From: Pseudobdellovibrionaceae bacterium
Lineage (GTDB): Bacteria > Bdellovibrionota > Bdellovibrionia > Bdellovibrionales > UBA1609
NCBI GenBank assembly: GCA_026712605.1
Contig: JAPORL010000216.1
Coordinates: 1-10,341 of the forward strand
Reading direction: 5' to 3'
Length of the DNA: 10,341 bases
Shown: positions 2,155 to 8,309 of the stretch, in pieces
Numbering within the stretch: the stretch's first letter is position 1
How the letters are laid out: the number at the start of each line of letters is the position of its first letter
Translations under genes and position numbers: made by a program
The notes under the pieces: model-generated
What the model was told of the DNA's origin: nothing
The model's database searches: none
What the model saw: only the letters and a program-made list of their open reading frames with translations

Positions 2155-2273
2155 AAAAGCTTATAAGATATAAAGCTCAAAAACTCAGACATGCGTTTTG
2201 CCACAAAGCGACCTATGGTCGCTATGTGTTCAAATCCGAACTCGTTTTGAACTTTATATCTTATTAAGCTTTT
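2155..2273 (+). repeat. Intergenic repeat copy A: 60-nt core in self-complementary arms
   Basis: The core at 2184-2243 starts CTCAGACATGCG and ends CAAATCCGAACTC. It matches copy C (8162-8221) at 56 of 60 positions with no gap. Inside it, AGCGACC-TAT-GGTCGCT forms a perfect 7-bp stem, extended by CACA/TGTG across an A-A mismatch and by a GTTTTG/CAAATCC-type outer stem. The flanks 2155-2182 and 2245-2273 are inverted repeats of each other apart from one indel and one mismatch. Each starts one base from the core. The left arm begins AAAAGCTTATAAG. The arm sequence is not shared with copy C apart from the innermost TCAAAA/TTTTGA. Confidence 0.85.
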
Positions 2274-2312
2274 AATCAAGAAACTTAAATAGGAACAAAT
2301 AAACTCTAAAAT

Positions 2313-2372
2313 TTAAGACATGCGGTTTGCCACAAAGCAACCTTCAGTCGCTATTGTATCAAATCCGAACTC
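2313..2372 (+). repeat. Intergenic repeat copy B: diverged core
   Basis: This 60-nt core starts TTAAGACATGCGG and ends AAATCCGAACTC. It aligns without gaps to copy A with roughly a dozen differences. The central stem is weakened: GCAACC-TTCA-GTCGC replaces GCGACC-TAT-GGTCGC. The immediate flanks pair only partly (left ACTCTAAAA, right TTTTTAGTTC). TGTGAAAAGCTT at 2151-2162 is exactly complementary to AAGCTTTTCACA at 2394-2405, so copies A and B lie together inside one outer inverted repeat. This looks like an older, decaying copy in tandem with A. Confidence 0.75.
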
Positions 2373-2465
2373 CTTTTTAGTTCTGTATTTTACAAGCTTT
2401 TCACACAAAGCTCAAAATAAATAAAGATATCAAAATCCCTTCTATTCAATCTTAATTTTTTGTTT

Positions 2466-2471
2466 TATAAT
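2466..2471 (+). promoter_or_regulatory. Putative -10 box of obg, near-leaderless
   Basis: A perfect TATAAT ends eight bases before the obg ATG at 2480. No convincing -35 hexamer lies at 16-18 bases; TTCAAT at 2445-2450 is the closest. Transcription from here would start at or within a base or two of the start codon. No Shine-Dalgarno sequence is present. Confidence 0.4.
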
Positions 2472-2479
2472 ATACTATT

Positions 2480-3490
2480 ATGTTCAACTATAAAGATCAA
2501 TTTGTATTAAATGTAGCTAGTGGAGATGGAGGAGACGGAGCTGTTAGTTTTTATAGAACTAAAAAAAATCCAAGAGGAGGTCCTGATGGAGGAGATGGAG
2601 CTAAGGGAGGCTCTATTATTTTTACTTCTTCTAATGAATTAAGCGGATTTGAGCATTTTAAAAATATTAAAAAATATAAAGCAGGCTCTGGAGGTAAAGG
2701 AGCTAAACAGCTTAAATCAGGAAAAACAGGCAAAAATATTATAATAAAACTGCCTTTAGGAACATTAGTTAGGAATAGTCAAGGAGAAATTCTTAAAGAT
2801 TTTGCTGTTGAAAAAGAAGAGTTGTTTTTAGAAGGAGGCACTGGGGGCCGAGGCAATGCTTTTTTTAAAAGCAGTTTAAATCAAGCTCCTAGAAAATTTC
2901 AAAAAGGAAAAAAAGGAAAAAGCCAAAAAATTATTTTAGAGTTAAAACCTTTAGTAGATGTAGCTATTATTGGTAAAGTCAATACAGGAAAATCCTCGTT
3001 TTTTAATTTAGTTACAAAAGCTCAATCCAAAGTCGCTGTTTATCCCTATACCACTTTAGTTCCGCATATAGGTCAGTTAAAATCTATGTCTCATCAGTAT
3101 TTTTTAATGGATATTCCCGGTTTAGAGAAAGGAGCTAGTAAAAATATTTTCAAAGGTCTTTCTTTTTTAAGAAGTATTCAAAGGTCTAAAATTTTATTGC
3201 ATTTTATAGATGCCCTTAGCAACACGCCCTTAGAAGATTTGTTAGAAATCTATGAAGAGCTAAAAGCTTTTGATAAAAAATATTCAGAATTTTATTTTCA
3301 AAAATTACAGAAAAAAACCTGTTTTTATGTTTTAACAAAAATAGATGAGCTATCTTCAAAAAAAAATTTAGATGATATTTTACAAAAAATTAAAATAAAA
3401 AAGAATCAAAAAATTTTTACTCTTTCAAATAAAACAAAAAAAGGACTAAAGAAGCTTTTATCTCATGTTGAGAATCTTTGTGTTTCTTAA
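2480..3490 (+). CDS. obg: GTPase Obg (CgtA), large ribosomal subunit assembly
   Basis: Obg is a conserved GTPase that acts on late 50S subunit assembly and links growth to nucleotide levels. The N-terminal glycine-rich Obg fold spans residues 1-158: GDGGDGAVSF (15-24), GGPDGGDGAKGG (33-44), LPLGTLV (91-97), and EGGTGGRGNAFF (118-129). The G domain follows: G1 GKVNTGKS (165-172), switch I YPYTT (188-192), G3 DIPG (211-214), and G4 TKID (286-289). The protein stops at 336 aa after the G domain, so it has no C-terminal OCT extension, as in many Gram-negative Obg proteins. G1 has Val-Asn-Thr where Pro-Asn/Ser-Ala/Val is usual, and the GLG after G3 is altered. These deviations do not remove nucleotide-contacting residues. 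The start is the first ATG, directly before FNYKDQF, which fits family N-termini. Confidence 0.96.
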   Translation: MFNYKDQFVLNVASGDGGDGAVSFYRTKKNPRGGPDGGDGAKGGSIIFTSSNELSGFEHFKNIKKYKAGSGGKGAKQLKSGKTGKNIIIKLPLGTLVRNSQGEILKDFAVEKEELFLEGGTGGRGNAFFKSSLNQAPRKFQKGKKGKSQKIILELKPLVDVAIIGKVNTGKSSFFNLVTKAQSKVAVYPYTTLVPHIGQLKSMSHQYFLMDIPGLEKGASKNIFKGLSFLRSIQRSKILLHFIDALSNTPLEDLLEIYEELKAFDKKYSEFYFQKLQKKTCFYVLTKIDELSSKKNLDDILQKIKIKKNQKIFTLSNKTKKGLKKLLSHVENLCVS

Positions 3491-3495
3491 AAATT

Positions 3496-3566
3496 TAAAA
3501 CTATGTTTTTACCATAAAACGAGCTTTCAGTCGCAACATCTCCAAAGTTAAGCTTATTTTAGCCTG
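3496..3566 (+). repeat. Intergenic repeat copy D: degenerate core
   Basis: It begins six bases after the obg stop codon and aligns with the 60-nt core in the same orientation. The ATG near core position 8, an ACCATAAA block like GCCACAAA, TTTCAGTCGC (copy B has CTTCAGTCGC), a CCAAAG block like TCAAATC, and a trailing TTTTAG like that after copy B are all in order. The central stem is no longer complementary. It is probably a relic of the same family. Confidence 0.55.
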
Positions 3567-3787
3567 TATTTATAGCTTTTAGAAAAGATAAACTAAACTA
3601 AATATATGTAGAATTTAAGCAGATAATCTTGAACTTATAGTATAAGTTTGCTATAAATAGAAGCAGGTTGATAGAGTTTATAATTAAAAAATCTAGAACG
3701 ATCAAATTGTTATATTATACTCAATTTGTGATCTGCCCATTTAATATTTCCTTAAAGTCTAGTATATTTAAAAAATTTTTATTCGGA

Positions 3788-3815
3788 TTGAAAAAATTAA
3801 AATAAGGAATATAAA
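3788..3815 (+). promoter_or_regulatory. Putative promoter for nadD-rsfS
   Basis: TTGAAA (3788-3793) and TATAAA (3810-3815) are separated by 16 bases. The predicted transcript would start about 3822 and give a leader of roughly 13 nt before the TTG start. A second TATAAA at 3822-3827 has no matching -35 box. Consensus-based prediction. Confidence 0.45.
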
Positions 3816-3834
3816 TAAAGATATAAAAACTAAA

Positions 3835-4917
3835 TTGAAAAAAGTAAATTTAAAAAAACAATTAAAAACAGCTGTTATGGGAGGCAGTTTTGATCCTTTC
3901 CATTTGGCTCATCTGAATAGTTTATTGACAGTAAAAGAAAAATTTGAATTAGATCAAATTTTTTTAATTCCCGCTTTTAAGACTCCTTTAAAAAATGAGA
4001 AAAAAGAAATCAATCCCTTTCATCGTTTAGAAATGCTAAAACGAATTGCTGAAAACTACACTTTTATAATTATAGACGATCAAGAGATTAACCGAAAGGG
4101 AGTAAGCTATACCTATAAAACAATAAACGAATTGACTAAAAAAAGAAAAATAGAAGAGCTTTTTTTTATTATGGGATTAGATCAGTTTTATATTTTAGAT
4201 CAATGGAAAAACTATAAAACTTTATTACAAAAAACAAATTTAATTATAACCAGCCGACCGGGCAATCATTTTCCTAAAAAATTATCTGATTTTCCTTTTG
4301 GTTTAAGAGAATTTATCAAAAAAAGAAAAATAGATCATATCAAACTTAAAGTTACAAAAGATACCTCTAAAAATAAAACTCAAGAGGGAAAAAGTATTTA
4401 TTTTTGTGAATTAAAGGATATGGATATCTCTTCTTCTGATATAAAAAAGAGACTATTTGAAAAAAAAGAATTTTCTCATTTATTGCCACAAGAAGTTGAT
4501 ACCTATATCAAACAAAACAAACTTTACACCAATGAGGCTAAAGCCCCTGATCACACTCAATCTCTCATTAATTTGTCTATTCAGGAATTAAAAAAGAAAA
4601 AAGCTTATGATATAAAATTATATGATCTAAGAAAGAAGCCCTTGCCCTTTTCCTTTGCTGTCATTGCTATCGCTTCTAATACTAGACAGACTGTAGCTAT
4701 AGCTAATCATTTAAAAAGAACAATAAAAAACAAGTTTGATATAAAGCCTTGGGGCGAAGAAGGAAAAGATTCAGCTAAATGGATTGTCTTAGATTTTGGA
4801 GATATAGTTTTTCATATTTTTTATGATTATACAAGAAAGTTCTACAAATTAGAAGAGCTATGGGAAGATAGCTTGATAAATTCTAATTATCCAGCTATCC
4901 AAAGAAAATCAAGTTAG
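3835..4917 (+). CDS. nadD: NadD-RsfS fusion: NaMN adenylyltransferase plus ribosome silencing factor
   Basis: Two proteins that are usually encoded by separate neighbouring genes are joined in one 360-aa frame. Residues 10-232 are nicotinate-mononucleotide adenylyltransferase, which makes deamido-NAD from NaMN and ATP: GGSFDPFHLAH (16-26, the nucleotidyltransferase signature), FIMGLDQFYILDQW (111-124), ITSRPG (138-143), ISSSDIKKRL (198-207, for ISSTxIR) and VDTYIKQNKLY (221-231). Residues 242-348 are RsfS (DUF143), which binds uL14 on the 50S subunit and blocks subunit joining: LKKKKAYDIKLYDL (252-265), FAVIAIASNTRQTVAIA (274-290), GEEGKDSAKWIVLDFGDIV (307-325), FHIFYDYTRKFYKLEELW (326-343). 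Both halves look intact, without an internal stop or frameshift. The start is TTG: the only nearby ATG (Met15) lies inside the catalytic motif and no upstream ATG is in frame. The last 107 nt reappear at 6318-6424. Confidence 0.93.
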   Translation: MKKVNLKKQLKTAVMGGSFDPFHLAHLNSLLTVKEKFELDQIFLIPAFKTPLKNEKKEINPFHRLEMLKRIAENYTFIIIDDQEINRKGVSYTYKTINELTKKRKIEELFFIMGLDQFYILDQWKNYKTLLQKTNLIITSRPGNHFPKKLSDFPFGLREFIKKRKIDHIKLKVTKDTSKNKTQEGKSIYFCELKDMDISSSDIKKRLFEKKEFSHLLPQEVDTYIKQNKLYTNEAKAPDHTQSLINLSIQELKKKKAYDIKLYDLRKKPLPFSFAVIAIASNTRQTVAIANHLKRTIKNKFDIKPWGEEGKDSAKWIVLDFGDIVFHIFYDYTRKFYKLEELWEDSLINSNYPAIQRKSS

Positions 4918-4920
4918 TAA
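4814..4920 (+). repeat. Direct repeat, left copy (rsfS 3' end)
   Basis: These 107 bases, the end of the nadD-rsfS frame plus its stop and three more bases, recur at 6318-6424 with only six differences and no gap. The copies lie 1504 bp apart and bracket the ATPase gene. This copy is the one in the intact gene. Confidence 0.9.
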
Positions 4921-4967
4921 TAATTTATTTTTTTATTAAAGCTTTTTTAGAGTTTTTCAAAAAAATT

Positions 4968-5008
4968 CTAAACTTTTTAATATTTGACTTTCTAAAGTTT
5001 AGTTTTTT
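4968..5008 (+). terminator. Probable intrinsic terminator after nadD-rsfS
   Basis: CTAAACTTT (4968-4976) and AAAGTTTAG (4994-5002) form a 9-bp stem with a 17-base loop, followed at once by six T (5003-5008). The stem has few GC pairs, so it is weak by consensus rules. Its position, 50 bp after the stop and before the ATPase regulatory region, supports the call. Confidence 0.4.
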
Positions 5009-5018
5009 CTTATCAGTA

Positions 5019-5070
5019 TTTGATAGTCAATCATCAAATACCCGTGAGCATTTGATGATTGACCATCAAA
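5019..5070. promoter_or_regulatory. Double palindrome upstream of the ATPase gene, putative operator
   Basis: TTTGATAGTCAATCATCAAA (from 5019) is followed after a 10-base loop by its inverse, 5050-5070, with 20 of 21 positions complementary. Each arm is itself a dyad of the form TTTGAT-N8-ATCAAA, so there are four TTTGAT half-sites. The flanks CCCGTGAG and ACTCATGTG also resemble each other. The right arm contains TTGACC (5059-5064), a -35-like hexamer 17 bases before TAAATA (5082-5087), so a bound protein would cover the promoter. TATAAT at 5088-5093 abuts the ATG. It could alternatively act as a structured DNA or RNA site. Confidence 0.5.
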
Positions 5071-5093
5071 CACTCATGTGGTAAATATATAAT

Positions 5094-6233
5094 ATGAAAG
5101 GATTTCATAAAAGGTATTTAATGCGTCCTATAAAAACTTTTTTACGAGATAAGATGGTTTTTTTAGCTGGTCCAAGGCAGGTTGGAAAAACAAGCTTATG
5201 TCTTCATTTTTTAAAACCTCCTTCTACAGAAAACCCAGCTTATTTAAATTGGGACGATTTGTTGGCTCGGGATAAAATAAAAAAAGCAGAAGTTCCTGTA
5301 AATAAAAAAATTTTGTGTTTTGATGAAATTCATAAGTTTAAAAACTGGCGATCTCTTATTAAAGGTTTGTATGATACTAAAAAATATAAACATCAGTTTT
5401 TAGTCACAGGCTCTGCTCGCTTAGATTATTATAGAAGGGGAGGAGATTCTCTTTTAGGTCGTTATAGGTATTTAAGACTTCATCCTTTAACATTAGGAGA
5501 GCTTTCTTCTTCAAGTCAAAGTAGTGTGAAAACACTATTAAAGTTTGGAGGTTTTCCTGAGCCTTTTTTTAAAGGGACAGCCAAAAATCTTCGTTTGTGG
5601 CATAAAGAGAGAGTTTATAGAATAATTCATGATGACTTAAGAGATTTAGATCAGGTTAAAGAGTTAAGCTCTATGGAGCTTTTAGCAGATGCTCTCCCTT
5701 TTCGTGTGGGAGCTCCCTTGTCAATAAAAAACTTAGCAGATGATCTATTAACTAATCATAGCACCATTCGTCGTTGGGTGCAGATTTTAGATAATATTTA
5801 TTATTCTTACCGTATTTCACCTTACGGAGCTCCTAAAATACGAGCTGTTAAAAAAGAGCAAAAACTTTATCTTTGGGATTGGAGCTCTATTGAAGATTCT
5901 TCATTTAGATTTGAGAATATGGTAGCCAGCCATCTTTTAAAATATTGTCATTTTCTAGAAGATACACAAGGTTTTAATATGGAATTAAGGTTTTTAAGAG
6001 ATACGGATAAAAGAGAAGTAGATTTTGTGGTTCTAAAAAATAAAAAAGCTTTATTTGCAGTAGAGTGTAAAACGGGTGAAAAACAAATTTCTCCTCATAT
6101 AAACTATTTTAAAGCCAGAACAAATATACCCAAATTTTATCAAGTGCATTTAGGCTCAAAACATGTAGAGCTAGATAAAAAAACAGTGATAATCCCTTTT
6201 AGAAGCTTCTGCTCTCAAAAAAAACTCATATAA
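5094..6233 (+). CDS. AAA ATPase with C-terminal DUF4143 nuclease-like domain
   Basis: It belongs to the large AAA_14/DUF4143 group of P-loop ATPases, common in accessory genome regions and of unproven function. Residues 5-9 are the family's usual KRYL start. Walker A is GPRQVGKTS (26-34), Walker B is LCFDEIH (74-80; D77, E78), and the sensor block is VTGSAR (104-109) followed by LLGRYRYLRLHPLTLGEL (120-137). About residues 207-240 look like a winged helix (LADDLLTNHSTIRRWVQ). The C-terminal part has EVDFVV (308-313) and AVECKTG (322-328), an E-x-K arrangement like the PD-(D/E)xK fold. It is full length at 379 aa and apparently intact. The start at 5094 keeps the KRYL block; an ATG at 5121 preceded by AAAAGG is an alternative. 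It stands alone between two copies of the rsfS 3' end, which suggests insertion. Biochemical role and target are unknown. Confidence 0.88.
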   Translation: MKGFHKRYLMRPIKTFLRDKMVFLAGPRQVGKTSLCLHFLKPPSTENPAYLNWDDLLARDKIKKAEVPVNKKILCFDEIHKFKNWRSLIKGLYDTKKYKHQFLVTGSARLDYYRRGGDSLLGRYRYLRLHPLTLGELSSSSQSSVKTLLKFGGFPEPFFKGTAKNLRLWHKERVYRIIHDDLRDLDQVKELSSMELLADALPFRVGAPLSIKNLADDLLTNHSTIRRWVQILDNIYYSYRISPYGAPKIRAVKKEQKLYLWDWSSIEDSSFRFENMVASHLLKYCHFLEDTQGFNMELRFLRDTDKREVDFVVLKNKKALFAVECKTGEKQISPHINYFKARTNIPKFYQVHLGSKHVELDKKTVIIPFRSFCSQKKLI

Positions 6234-6260
6234 ACTAAAAATCATATAATTTTTTTTATT

Positions 6261-6421
6261 TTTGATCTAAAGCCTTAATTTGCAAAATGGATCGAAATTA
6301 TGGGAGTTTAATTTTTAATATTTTTTATGACTACACAAGAAGGTTCTACAAATTAGAAGAACTATGGGAAGATAGCTTAATAAATTCTAATTATCCAACT
6401 ATCCAAAGAAAATCAAGTTAG
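6261..6421 (+). pseudogene. Truncated duplicate of the rsfS 3' end
   Basis: From 6318 it matches 4814-4917 at about 94%, including the same TAG stop. Upstream the match is patchy: TTTGAT-x-TAAAGCCTT (6261-6276) and AAATGGAT (from 6285) align with the rsfS frame after a deletion, and codons for NYGSLIFN align with DFGDIVFH. An ATG at 6287 opens a 44-codon frame in register with RsfS and ends QRKSS like the parent. It lacks most of the RsfS domain, so a normal function is unlikely. It lies between the ATPase stop and the convergent cysteine-rich gene. Confidence 0.8.
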
Positions 6422-6424
6422 TAA
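6318..6424 (+). repeat. Direct repeat, right copy (rsfS 3' end)
   Basis: Partner of 4814-4920. The six differences are all transitions, and four are synonymous in the RsfS frame. Identity falls sharply just upstream of 6318, so this edge is a likely recombination or insertion junction. Confidence 0.88.
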
Positions 6425-6430
6425 AAGTAT

Positions 6431-6994
6431 TCAAAGGCAAAGAGGGGGCTCATTACAGCATTTTGGAACTGTTCTTTTCTTACAGCCTATAGCCTCTTTA
6501 TATGTTTTGAATTCATCTTTATGAGTTTTTTCATAATCATAATGCTTATAGTCTGGTGGACAACTTTTTAAATAAACCCATCCTTCTTTAATATTATATC
6601 TGTAATATTGCCAACCTTTATCAGTTTTTTCAGGAGGGTTTTGTTTTCCAAATAGACAACTTTTTGTTTTATGATTAACTATTATTTTATTTCCAACTTC
6701 AAGCTCTGGCTTTTCAGTTGATATAATAGTTTCAATTTTAAGAGCTTCTCTAGAGATAGATTTTATTTTATATAATTCTTTTTGTAAGTCTTTATAAGAT
6801 GTTGGACAGCTAGCTTTTTCAATCCATCCTTTATTTAAGATAGGATCACAAGAACTGCATGCGCCTACCTCATAAAATACGACACACTGTTTTGTTTCTT
6901 TATTTACTGCAAACCTATCAGGCCCTCTTGTGCTAAAAACAGCTATAGGAAAAGCTAGTATAAAAATAATACTTTTTTGAATATTAAAAAGCAT
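6431..6994 (-). CDS. Secreted cysteine-rich protein with two related repeats, function unknown
   Basis: I do not recognise a family. The 187-aa product starts with a basic-then-hydrophobic segment (KSIIFILAFPIAVFS, residues 7-21) that looks like a Sec signal peptide with cleavage after about residue 21. No lipobox cysteine is placed after it. The mature part has ten cysteines. Two related units can be seen: NKETKQC (31-37), KGW (55-57), CPTSYK (63-68), and then NHKTKSC (107-113), KGW/EGW (126-128, 137-139), CPPDYK (145-150). A cysteine-rich tail, CKKRTVPKCCNEPPLC, follows. This suggests a disulphide-stabilised exported protein, inferred to act in the periplasm or outside. The ATG at 6994 is preceded by TATAAT six bases upstream. 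The stop is TGA, nine bases from the end of the rsfS fragment on the other strand. Confidence 0.8.
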   Translation of the reverse strand: MLFNIQKSIIFILAFPIAVFSTRGPDRFAVNKETKQCVVFYEVGACSSCDPILNKGWIEKASCPTSYKDLQKELYKIKSISREALKIETIISTEKPELEVGNKIIVNHKTKSCLFGKQNPPEKTDKGWQYYRYNIKEGWVYLKSCPPDYKHYDYEKTHKDEFKTYKEAIGCKKRTVPKCCNEPPLCL

Positions 6995-7000
6995 GTTAAT

Positions 7001-7006
7001 ATTATA
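7001..7006 (-). promoter_or_regulatory. Putative -10 box of the cysteine-rich protein gene
   Basis: Reading leftward, a perfect TATAAT ends six bases before the ATG at 6994, with only ATTAAC between. The predicted start of transcription coincides with the start codon. No strong -35 box is seen; TTTTTA at 18 bases is the nearest. Confidence 0.4.
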
Positions 7007-7034
7007 CTACTTAAATTTCAATTTTAAAAATTTT

Positions 7035-7901
7035 TTATAGAAAACCTTCACTATAGTTAAAATAAGCCTGTAAAATTTTTAAAATAGGCTCTTCAATATT
7101 AGAGATCATTTGAGAAAAGCTTAACTCTGAATAATTAGGATCTATCCCACAAGCAGGATTAGATATTAAAGAAAAACCAGCTAACTTAGCTCCTGCTTGC
7201 TTTAAAGCAATGGCTTCTAAAACTGTTGACATGCCAACGGCATCAAATAAAGCTTTTGAACTTCTATTAAGCCATTCAATTTGAGCTGGGCTTTCTAGTT
7301 CTGGTCCACAAAGCCCTACATAAACTCCAGGGCTTACTCTTACTTTTAATTTTAAAAGCTCTTTGCTGATTTTTTCTCTTGTTTCTAAATCATAAATGCG
7401 AGACATATCGGGAAAGCGATGTCCGAGTTTTTTACCTTCTGGAGTTGTTTTTTCTTTTCCTATAAGAGGGCTAGTTCCTGTAAAATTCACATGATCACTT
7501 AAGGCTATCACTGTTCCCACTGTATGCTCTTTTTTTAAGCCACCTGATATATTGCTTAAAACAAAATGCTTAGTGCCTGCTAATAAAATTTGTATAACAG
7601 GCTCTACAACAGTTTGAGCAGAATGCCCTTCATAAAGGTGAAGACGCCCACATTGAAAGCTAATACATTTATTGGATTTTTTATGAACAAAAAAACGATA
7701 GAGTCCAGCATGGGATTTTACTGTAGGGGAGGGCAGTTGAGGGACATCAGAAAAAGAGCAAATCTGCCGTTCCTCCCAATTATTGAAACTATCTAGTTTT
7801 TTAATTTTATCTAAAGAAGAGCTAAAGCCTGAACCTAATACAAAGTGACAAAGAGGTGGGGATATATTTATCTTTTTATAATAGTTTTCAAAAAAAGACA
7901 T
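7035..7901 (-). CDS. punA: Purine nucleoside phosphorylase (trimeric, PNP/MTAP family)
   Basis: It cleaves purine nucleosides with phosphate to free base and ribose 1-phosphate, the salvage counterpart of PurH in this window. Counting from a TTG at 7937 as residue 1, landmarks are phosphate-site GSGFSS (35-40), SHAG (75-78), GRLHLYEGHS (97-106), NISGG (129-133, usually NAAGG), DHVNFTGTSPLIG (148-160), FPDMSRIYD (175-183), GPELESPAQ (211-219) with the base-binding Glu, GMSTVLEAIA (235-244), and SLISNPACG (256-264) with the base-binding Asn. All catalytic positions appear present. I place the start at the ATG at 7901 (Met13), giving 288 aa, because the upstream TTGACA looks like a -35 box and not a start; a TTG start at 7937 would give 300 aa. 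Substrate choice between inosine, guanosine and methylthioadenosine cannot be fixed by eye. Confidence 0.92.
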   Translation of the reverse strand: MSFFENYYKKINISPPLCHFVLGSGFSSSLDKIKKLDSFNNWEERQICSFSDVPQLPSPTVKSHAGLYRFFVHKKSNKCISFQCGRLHLYEGHSAQTVVEPVIQILLAGTKHFVLSNISGGLKKEHTVGTVIALSDHVNFTGTSPLIGKEKTTPEGKKLGHRFPDMSRIYDLETREKISKELLKLKVRVSPGVYVGLCGPELESPAQIEWLNRSSKALFDAVGMSTVLEAIALKQAGAKLAGFSLISNPACGIDPNYSELSFSQMISNIEEPILKILQAYFNYSEGFL

Positions 7902-7908
7902 GCTGTGT

Positions 7909-7937
7909 TTTTTACCCAGCTTTTTAAATTTTGTCAA
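7909..7937 (-). promoter_or_regulatory. Putative promoter of punA
   Basis: Reading leftward, a perfect TTGACA (7937-7932) is followed after exactly 17 bases by TAAAAA (7914-7909). The -10-like box ends seven bases before the ATG at 7901, the same spacing seen at obg, acn and the cysteine-rich gene. Confidence 0.45.
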
Positions 7938-8034
7938 AAATATTTGTGTTTAAATTTACATTAATTTTCTATACTAATTTAAGTGACTTATAATCCTTTT
8001 AAAGGCTATAAAAACAGGCTCTAAGTTTGTATTT

Positions 8035-8067
8035 GACTAAATAGCAACTAAAAGTTACTATTTAGTC
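8035..8067. repeat. Hairpin next to repeat copy C, possible relic core
   Basis: GACTAAATAGCAACT (8035-8049) and AGTTACTATTTAGTC (8053-8067) pair at 14 of 15 positions around an AAA loop. The order AGCAAC, then AGTTACTATT, then CTGAATTCTTTTT loosely follows copy B (AGCAAC, CAGTCGCTATT, CCGAACTCCTTTTT). It may be a decayed repeat copy or an unrelated hairpin. Confidence 0.4.
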
Positions 8068-8085
8068 TTAAGTCTGAATTCTTTT

Positions 8086-8309
8086 TAAAAATTTTAGGAA
8101 TTATATCCATAACTTTCCAAAGTTATTAATCTGTCTAAAGGCAATAAAAAAGCTTCAAAATTTCAGACATGCGGTTTGCCACAAAGCGACCTATGGTCGC
8201 TGTGTGTTCAAATCCGAACTTATTTTGAGGCTTTTTTATTGCCTTTAGAAGAGATAGAATAAATTTAATCTTTTCTGGAAAGTTATGGATATAATTCCTA
8301 AAATTTTTA
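8086..8309 (+). repeat. Intergenic repeat copy C: core inside a 224-bp palindrome
   Basis: The 60-nt core (8162-8221) starts TTCAGACATGCGG and ends AAATCCGAACTT. Its internal stem AGCGACC-TAT-GGTCGCT and the outer CGGTTTG/CAAATCCG pairing are intact. One base away on each side lie inner arms 8134-8160 and 8223-8249, which pair at 26 of 27 positions (left arm begins TCTAAAGGCAATAAAAAAGC). After unequal spacers (14 and 26 bases), outer arms 8086-8119 and 8276-8309 pair at 34 of 34 (left arm begins TAAAAATTTTAGGAATTA). The element lies between the divergent punA and acn genes. Confidence 0.9.

Follow-up and report, generated by a model that had tools for sequence, protein, structure and literature searches.

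Hairpin-forming repeats and their mode of evolution have been described in several systems. The repetitive hairpin-forming elements (PMC2800124) and double-hairpin elements of mitochondria are dispersed intergenic hairpins with tandem copies and no known enzyme. Repetitive extragenic palindromic (REP) sequences, of the system that includes the REP-associated tyrosine transposases (RAYT), are described as palindromic, intergenic and high in copy number (PMC2817692), and bacterial miniature inverted-repeat transposable elements (MITEs) have terminal inverted repeats, target duplications and no coding capacity. Template switching at inverted repeats is described as homogenising arms and inverting spacers (PMC8604942) and as creating and maintaining stems (PMC8794818). 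The repeat family analysed here was noticed in a 10,341-nt stretch of DNA from a Pseudobdellovibrionaceae bacterium (contig JAPORL010000216.1 of assembly GCA_026712605.1), referred to as the window, which is one contig of a 1.35-Mb genome in 251 contigs (genome G000). An original prediction, made from the letters of the window, had noted two copies, A and C, of a 60-nt core flanked by inverted arms that pair within a copy and differ between copies; its observation is right and general, and its interpretation is partly supported. The evidence somewhat favours reading the family as a dispersed non-coding hairpin repeat with two parts under different rules, namely a structured head and arms kept alike by DNA copying, the copies being selfish or neutral and mobile.

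The family shares features with each of these systems and departs from all of them. In the sponge mitochondrial elements, stems are conserved and loops vary (PMC2800124), whereas here the head is conserved across families, the stems vary, and the hosts are bacterial. Likeness to MITEs is limited to the carrier of copy C, which has terminal inverted repeats, an 8-bp target duplication and no coding capacity; in most sampled genomes the core lies without such a carrier, and it is better conserved than any ends. Unlike REP sequences (PMC2817692), the copies are longer (about 115-250 nt), form head-to-tail arrays and do not conserve their arm sequence, and no match to PF01797 (Y1 transposase) was found in six of the seven copy-rich genomes. 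Arm homogenisation, multiple double replacements and spacer inversion are shared with the template-switch evolution of inverted repeats and RNA stems, but the cases in PMC8604942 and PMC8794818 are scattered events in unrelated genes, whereas here a whole repeat family exhibits the pattern. A limited literature search turned up no description of this repeat.

The cores of copies A and C are identical at 56/60 positions, as had been predicted. The head that they represent, of approximately 60 nt, reads on the minus strand as 5'-GAGUUCGG-M-[variable hairpin]-M-CGCAUGUYYGAR-3' (M = A or C), with variants, and is composed of a short P2 helix, an asymmetric internal loop and freely covarying P3/P4. 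The P2 helix (UUCGG with CYGAR) was found by RNAalifold on the minus strand only, and its pairs include G-U in 38/48 and U-G in 31/48 sequences, which become A-C if read on the plus strand. Across 48 copies, 95.9% of 1102 cells are paired, all slid versions being far lower, and 38 cells of the core helices are changed on both sides versus 10.9 in shuffles. G-U cells outnumber A-C cells by 107 to 15 in the helices of this alignment, whose copies are related and not independent.

RNA structure is conventionally proved by compensatory changes, and the head exhibits the covarying, conserved secondary structure that characterises a structured non-coding RNA. The alignment shows the head to be a conserved, structured element that is read on the minus strand; the pairing pattern would be the same for RNA and for minus-strand single-stranded DNA (ssDNA). 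A search of the window against Rfam at E<=5 gave no match at the gathering threshold, and the match over core A was at chance level (MIR7504, 2217-2342, 23 bits versus a gathering threshold of 83). Loci L113, L114, L119 and L125 matched nothing at the gathering threshold except a tRNA and a purine riboswitch, both next to the core. The idea that the head resembles a tRNA was dropped, as no tRNA was found in the window. The head is a structured motif without an Rfam match, spread over four families of one order and with a putative partner factor, and it may serve as the recognition module for a trans-acting, RNA- or ssDNA-binding factor that spreads the repeat.

The arms were found to pair as claimed. 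Those of A (29 and 30 nt), given as 27/29, match at 27 positions once a single 1-nt gap is allowed, and the inner arms of C, given as 26/27, match at 27/28. Arm alignment around A scores 50 against 33 for the highest of 1000 shuffles, and around C it scores 67 (103 with wider flanks) against highest shuffles of 27 (34). Folding z-scores for A and the inner part of C are -8.1 and -10.4 on the plus strand and -8.9 and -10.5 on the minus strand, and -17.2 for the whole of copy C. The arms of A and C are indeed unrelated to each other, their left arms having 12/29 ungapped matches versus a shuffled mean of 13.3. A third copy, B, has a core identical to that of A at 49/60 positions; its arm alignment (score 24, against 27 for the best shuffle) does not reach significance, and there is no significant complementary left arm.

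The same arrangement holds well beyond the window. From 265 rows, 207 were kept, of which 205 were distinct and five had flanks that were too short, and 200 copies from 20 genomes were tested; weak hits, those truncated at the end of a contig, and mirror-strand duplicates of a palindrome were omitted by selection. Inverted arms were found in 176/200 copies, versus 7/200 with a shuffled 3' flank, 25/200 with a 3' flank from another genome and 107/192 with that of another copy from the same genome, the last rate being high because arms are related within a genome. The two outcomes that would have told against the original prediction, a lack of inverted flanks in most copies or identical flanks in all, did not occur, and flanks differ among copies. 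Across eight genomes, with every sufficiently flanked copy included, the complement between own arms is 0.76-0.98 versus 0.57-0.71 for arms swapped within the genome, with the smallest contrast in G000 (0.76 versus 0.66) and the largest in G262 and G250. These comparisons show most copies to lie in a stem whose arms are close complements, closer than the arms of different copies.

Likeness between copies declines away from the core. In 153 copies with clear arms, between-copy identity is 0.83-0.98 in the core and 0.59-0.70 in the arm (nt 11-36), versus a shuffled null of 0.31-0.47. Arm similarity is above the null near the core in 8/8 genomes, and in 7/8 the similarity of flanks has fallen close to the null at a distance of 36-60 nt, the exception being G001, whose copies share outer ends. 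Several of the subsets used were thresholded by score (153 copies for between-copy identity, 157 for wobble, 113/144 for decayed cores, and 122 copies or stems for nearest-copy changes); the own/swapped complement and the nearest-copy counts were also run without score selection or with looser selections. The arms had been called copy-specific, which is true between subfamilies and genomes and not of every copy, because arms recur: the inner arms of C are nearly unchanged in four other G000 copies (97-100% over 115-116 nt), and many A-type copies have a recognisable arm consensus in common, drawn from 71 matches with scores reaching down to doubtful.

Head and arms differ in how they change. 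Comparisons between nearest copies, which overlap and are not independent events, give 15 double versus 64 single changes in the core helices (ratio 0.23), and 362 double Watson-Crick versus 111 single changes in trimmed arms. Because trimming favours perfect stems and hides single mismatches, the count was repeated on untrimmed 24-column stems, which gave 309 double versus 174 single changes at a minimum of 20 pairs and 354 versus 395 at a minimum of 14. The arms are about 4 to 14 times richer in double relative to single changes than the head, the size varying with the stems admitted. The outer arms of 157 copies contain 4762 Watson-Crick, 77 G-U, 48 A-C and 216 other cells, distinct G-U and A-C states number 58 and 44 (p=0.2), and the G-U share is 1.5% versus 9.7% in the core helices. 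Changes in the core helices are mostly single, wobble-keeping steps of the minus strand, which would be the mark of RNA or minus-strand ssDNA. In the arms, the excess of double Watson-Crick changes with little wobble preference is in the direction that arm-to-arm copying would be expected to produce.

The arms may thus be kept alike at the DNA level, with replication switching template within the hairpin and copying one arm onto the other; such switching would sometimes invert the head and would perhaps sometimes extend into local DNA. In G001, the core is turned relative to its flanks in 2/36 copies, with 21 others carrying those flanks around a core in the usual orientation and 13 unclassed by the pattern used, and such inversions fit template switching within the hairpin. 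In the roughly 200 copies sampled, the two kinds of covariation seem to stand together in one molecule, wobble-mediated in the head and copy-mediated, by double changes, in the arms. The family offers naturally occurring material on which to measure template switching at hairpins, its self-matching stems recording how hairpins may be mended and rewritten when DNA is copied, and it is a warning that covarying stems need not be under selection.

Several observations weigh against arms kept by copying in mobile hairpins. The raw number of G-U cells in the outer arms exceeds that of A-C (p=0.012). The ratio of double to single changes depends on the choice of stems: it is 3.3 in trimmed stems, and in untrimmed ones it falls from 1.8 when at least 20 of the 24 columns must pair to 1.3 at 18, 1.1 at 16 and 0.9 at 14. 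Arm score correlates with core identity (Spearman 0.41 in G000 and 0.46 in G002). In PMC8794818, single compensatory and loop-inversion changes were not above simulation, and only multiple ones were. At the rpoD locus, in the genus of G031, the 11 other sites viewed, out of 13, are unalignable between the genes, and no match to PF01797 or PF00078 was found in G000. Insertion and template switching are both deduced from the copies, and neither was seen directly.

The first two of these points, together with a core that is clearly selected as structure, suit an alternative in which the arms are held by selection for a long RNA stem through compensatory evolution, so that the hairpin as a whole would be a functional RNA wherever it lies; when stems are admitted more loosely, single changes become as common as double ones. 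However, the small G-U share of the outer arms, a double/single ratio that stays several times the core-helix value under every choice of stems, and the lack of a shared site among sampled copies of congeners make this alternative improbable. A candidate sign of RNA-pairing selection in the arms of G250 (17 G-U to 0 A-C) was rejected, as most of these pairs lie at the same inner positions in all copies and 1 to 0 is left without the inner 8 nt. The original prediction had proposed a long hairpin with a fixed structured head under selection. This is supported for the head, given its covariation, minus-strand G-U tolerance and conservation across families, but the outer arms exhibit little of the wobble that upkeep by RNA pairing would produce.

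The prediction had also proposed a mobile core whose insertion duplicates the flanking DNA in inverted form. In a version of this, the arms are made once: the head, joined to a target end, would fold back and prime copying of the adjacent DNA. On balance, this is somewhat unlikely. In G250, where cores are 98% identical and the two arms of a copy match at 0.98, similarity between copies at arm positions 36-60 is close to chance (0.50 versus a null of 0.44, and 0.42 versus 0.37), which favours arm acquisition at insertion, as does the rarity, in arm-only genomes, of direct repeats where the arms end. Long palindromes in the sampled loci, which had been chosen for having a core, comprise 10 without a core versus 122 with one, and three of the 10 are runs of N and two are further cores. 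Because coreless palindromes are so rare, the arms were probably not pre-existing palindromes, and such palindromes are unlikely to have served as insertion targets.

Against arms made only at insertion stand the likeness of arms near the core in all eight genomes and the narrow range of arm length within a genome (28-30 in 8/8 G263 copies and 54-65 in 9/9 G250 copies), which in G263 looks like an inherited unit. Decayed cores also keep good arms: in five genomes with 144 copies, arms of at least 15 columns are kept by 13/16 decayed cores (293/313 columns matching) and by 65/78 fresh cores (1521/1559 columns matching). This favours copying in place, which, given also the homology of arms near the core, probably occurs too. 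Upkeep in place and acquisition at insertion may both occur, and the predicted mobile core thus agrees with the dispersal of the family and with the G250 outer arms, and disagrees with the near-core homology and the arms of decayed cores. Our reading is of a mobile or formerly mobile hairpin with an RNA-like head and arms held in register largely by DNA copying. More speculatively, and with only a modest chance of being correct, the family could represent a selfish bacterial hairpin of a new class, its conserved head (RNA-like or ssDNA) being spread by some factor with no terminal repeats or target duplication; it would make and repeatedly remake its own stem by fold-back copying of adjacent DNA and so give each copy a private near-perfect palindrome.

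The core is abundant and unevenly distributed in a group of genomes taken to be those of Bdellovibrio relatives. A covariance model built from 48 copies matches G000 and G001 at least 150 times each, G002 76 times, G004 37 times, G016 53 times and the congener G003 not at all, counts that include some mirror-strand hits of about 30 bits. In G000, 107 places reach 80 bits or more among the matches listed, and blastn of the 116-nt C hairpin against its own genome gave 79 matches, some of them mirror-strand pieces. An 85-nt core query matches genomes of the same genus and of other genera. With at most 12 candidates scored per genome, 24/368 genomes of the phylum match the core at E<=1e-4, and these belong to four families of one order. 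In 13 lower-copy genomes, all 21 matches examined lie in inverted arms (18 to 152 matched bases), an independent sign by which they are likely real. In the one-contig genome G031 there is just one copy, at 56.6 bits, flanked by a tRNA and by a gene that looks by eye like rpoD. Copy number ranges from 0 to over 100 within one genus, and no pair of sampled copies from different genomes (for example, 50 from G000 and 23 from G002) shares both neighbouring genes. Candidate orthologous sites with a shared gene on one side proved to be different sites where checked. Dispersal of the core is supported by the swing in copy number and by the lack of a shared site among sampled copies.

The location of the copies bears on whether the repeat is a host element with a fixed intergenic role, for instance as terminator, as insulator or in processing. 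In line with such a role, 88/101 copies lie outside predicted open reading frames of at least 70 aa, some lie exactly between gene ends, and where the neighbouring genes are co-directional, antisense placement of the RNA strand outnumbers sense placement (54 to 34, p=0.04). Gene orientation at 153 loci otherwise shows no strong preference (88 co-directional, 37 convergent and 28 divergent), and the preference for gene 3' ends that would mark an intrinsic terminator is not seen. Since G003 also has no match where other congeners have dozens or more, a fixed host role is very unlikely.

Copy C is part of a MITE. Its terminal repeats are perfect reverse complements, and its core and inner arms are nested within a 204-nt carrier, the outer arms being the MITE ends and the target duplication. 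Among 15 loci with MITE ends viewed in G000, nine have both ends, and an exact 8-bp target duplication flanks 5/9 of these two-ended copies (the window copy included) versus 6/438 mismatched flank pairs. The core can apparently hitch-hike in ordinary MITEs, as copy C does, and the prediction that the repeat is the reverse of a MITE applies to arm-only copies and not to copy C. The view that the whole family is an ordinary MITE family, with the core as filler between terminal inverted repeats, is true of this carrier and draws further on the G001 copies, which share outer inverted ends by eye. However, the supposed filler is conserved across families and the ends are not, flanks lose their similarity by 36-60 nt in all but one of eight genomes, and the same core occurs in two unlike carriers (the G000 C-type and the G001 type), so that this view is highly doubtful. 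Direct repeats of at least 6 bp at arm ends, expected if all copies were MITEs, were found in 2/134 copies of eight genomes (G002 0/17, G004 0/18, G016 1/16, G262 0/11, G263 0/8, G250 0/9, G000 0/24 and G001 1/31) with a null of 0-1%; mean repeat length is slightly above the null in G250 (0.89 versus 0.34) and G001 (1.06 versus 0.29).

Several candidate movers and sources were rejected. PF01797 has no match in G000, G002, G004, G016, G262 or G263 (assemblies 83-94% complete), and has one in G001, 10 in G250, seven in G231 and two in G031. Neither an IS200-type transposase nor a reverse transcriptase tracks copy number, and the latter was rejected because it has matches in copy-free G003 and none in G000 or G263. 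A plasmid or phage origin was set aside after no blastn match was found in plasmid and phage collections and no exact 19-mer in viral contigs. An exact 19-mer match in a Bacteroidaceae record (L062) lies inside a long open frame and was taken as chance.

Clusters of copies viewed are head-to-tail, with one exception, an inverted decayed neighbour in L077, and the alternating orientation of REP/RAYT clusters was not found among them. In G027, of another family, three-unit arrays with a period of 132 lie at L117:1294-1702 and 7413-7782; each unit has a 5' arm and a core, with a 3' arm in the last only, like the G000 arrays with a period of about 128-129. Nesting was seen by eye in G231 (L114, L115 and L116), where cores lie on opposite strands and a second whole element replaces the apical hairpin of the outer core, and the P4 loop in G262 is occupied by another palindrome. 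After the rpoD stop in G217 (L256), the rpoD terminator hairpin appears by eye to be enclosed by half-core remnants and 28-bp arms.

Features of the repeat family in the window (positions count from the first letter of the stretch)
Feature	Position	Strand	Remarks
Core of copy A	2184..2243 (60 nt)	minus	Structured on minus strand; 107.4 bits, covariance model R1
Copy A left arm (3' arm of minus-strand hairpin)	2155..2183	no strand	Arm alignment
Copy A right arm (5' arm of minus-strand hairpin)	2244..2273	no strand	Arm alignment
Core of copy B	2313..2372	minus	Tandem with A, spacing 129; P2 decayed
Copy B right arm	about 2373-2402		Resembles right arm of A
Copy D, decayed relic	3482..3567	minus	31 bits
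Core of copy C	8162..8221 (60 nt)	minus	100.1 bits
Copy C inner left arm	8134..8161	no strand	Complementary to inner right arm at 27/28
Copy C inner right arm	8222..8249	no strand	Pairs with 8134..8161
MITE carrying copy C	8096..8299 (204 nt)	no strand	Terminal inverted repeats 8096-8118 and 8277-8299, 23 nt each
Target-site duplication AAAATTTT, left, 8 bp	8088..8095	no strand	Flanks copy C MITE
Target-site duplication AAAATTTT, right, 8 bp	8300..8307	no strand	Flanks copy C MITE

The neighbours of copies A and B are a purH-type gene (minus strand) on one side and an obg-type gene (plus strand) on the other; those of copy C are a nucleoside-phosphorylase-type gene (minus strand) and an aconitase-type gene (plus strand). 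Palindromes of other kinds were also seen. A coreless one with 28-nt arms (89%) and a 10-nt loop occupies window positions 5012-5077, and at L131:3854-4016 and L040:2553-2664 long palindromes have a different head with CCAGGATGG/CCAGGACGG hairpins, perhaps a second hairpin family; we take these hairpins to resemble CsrA-type sites. Elsewhere in the window, positions 3835-4917 form a single open frame in which RsfS, the ribosome silencing factor (PF02410), is fused to a domain of cytidylyltransferase type (PF01467, by eye NadD). The 3' end of this gene with PF01467 and RsfS domains is repeated, with positions 4793-4920 recurring at 6297-6424 (128 nt, 90%), and between the two repeats lies a gene for an AAA/DUF4143 ATPase (5094-6233), which looks as though it had come in with a duplication.

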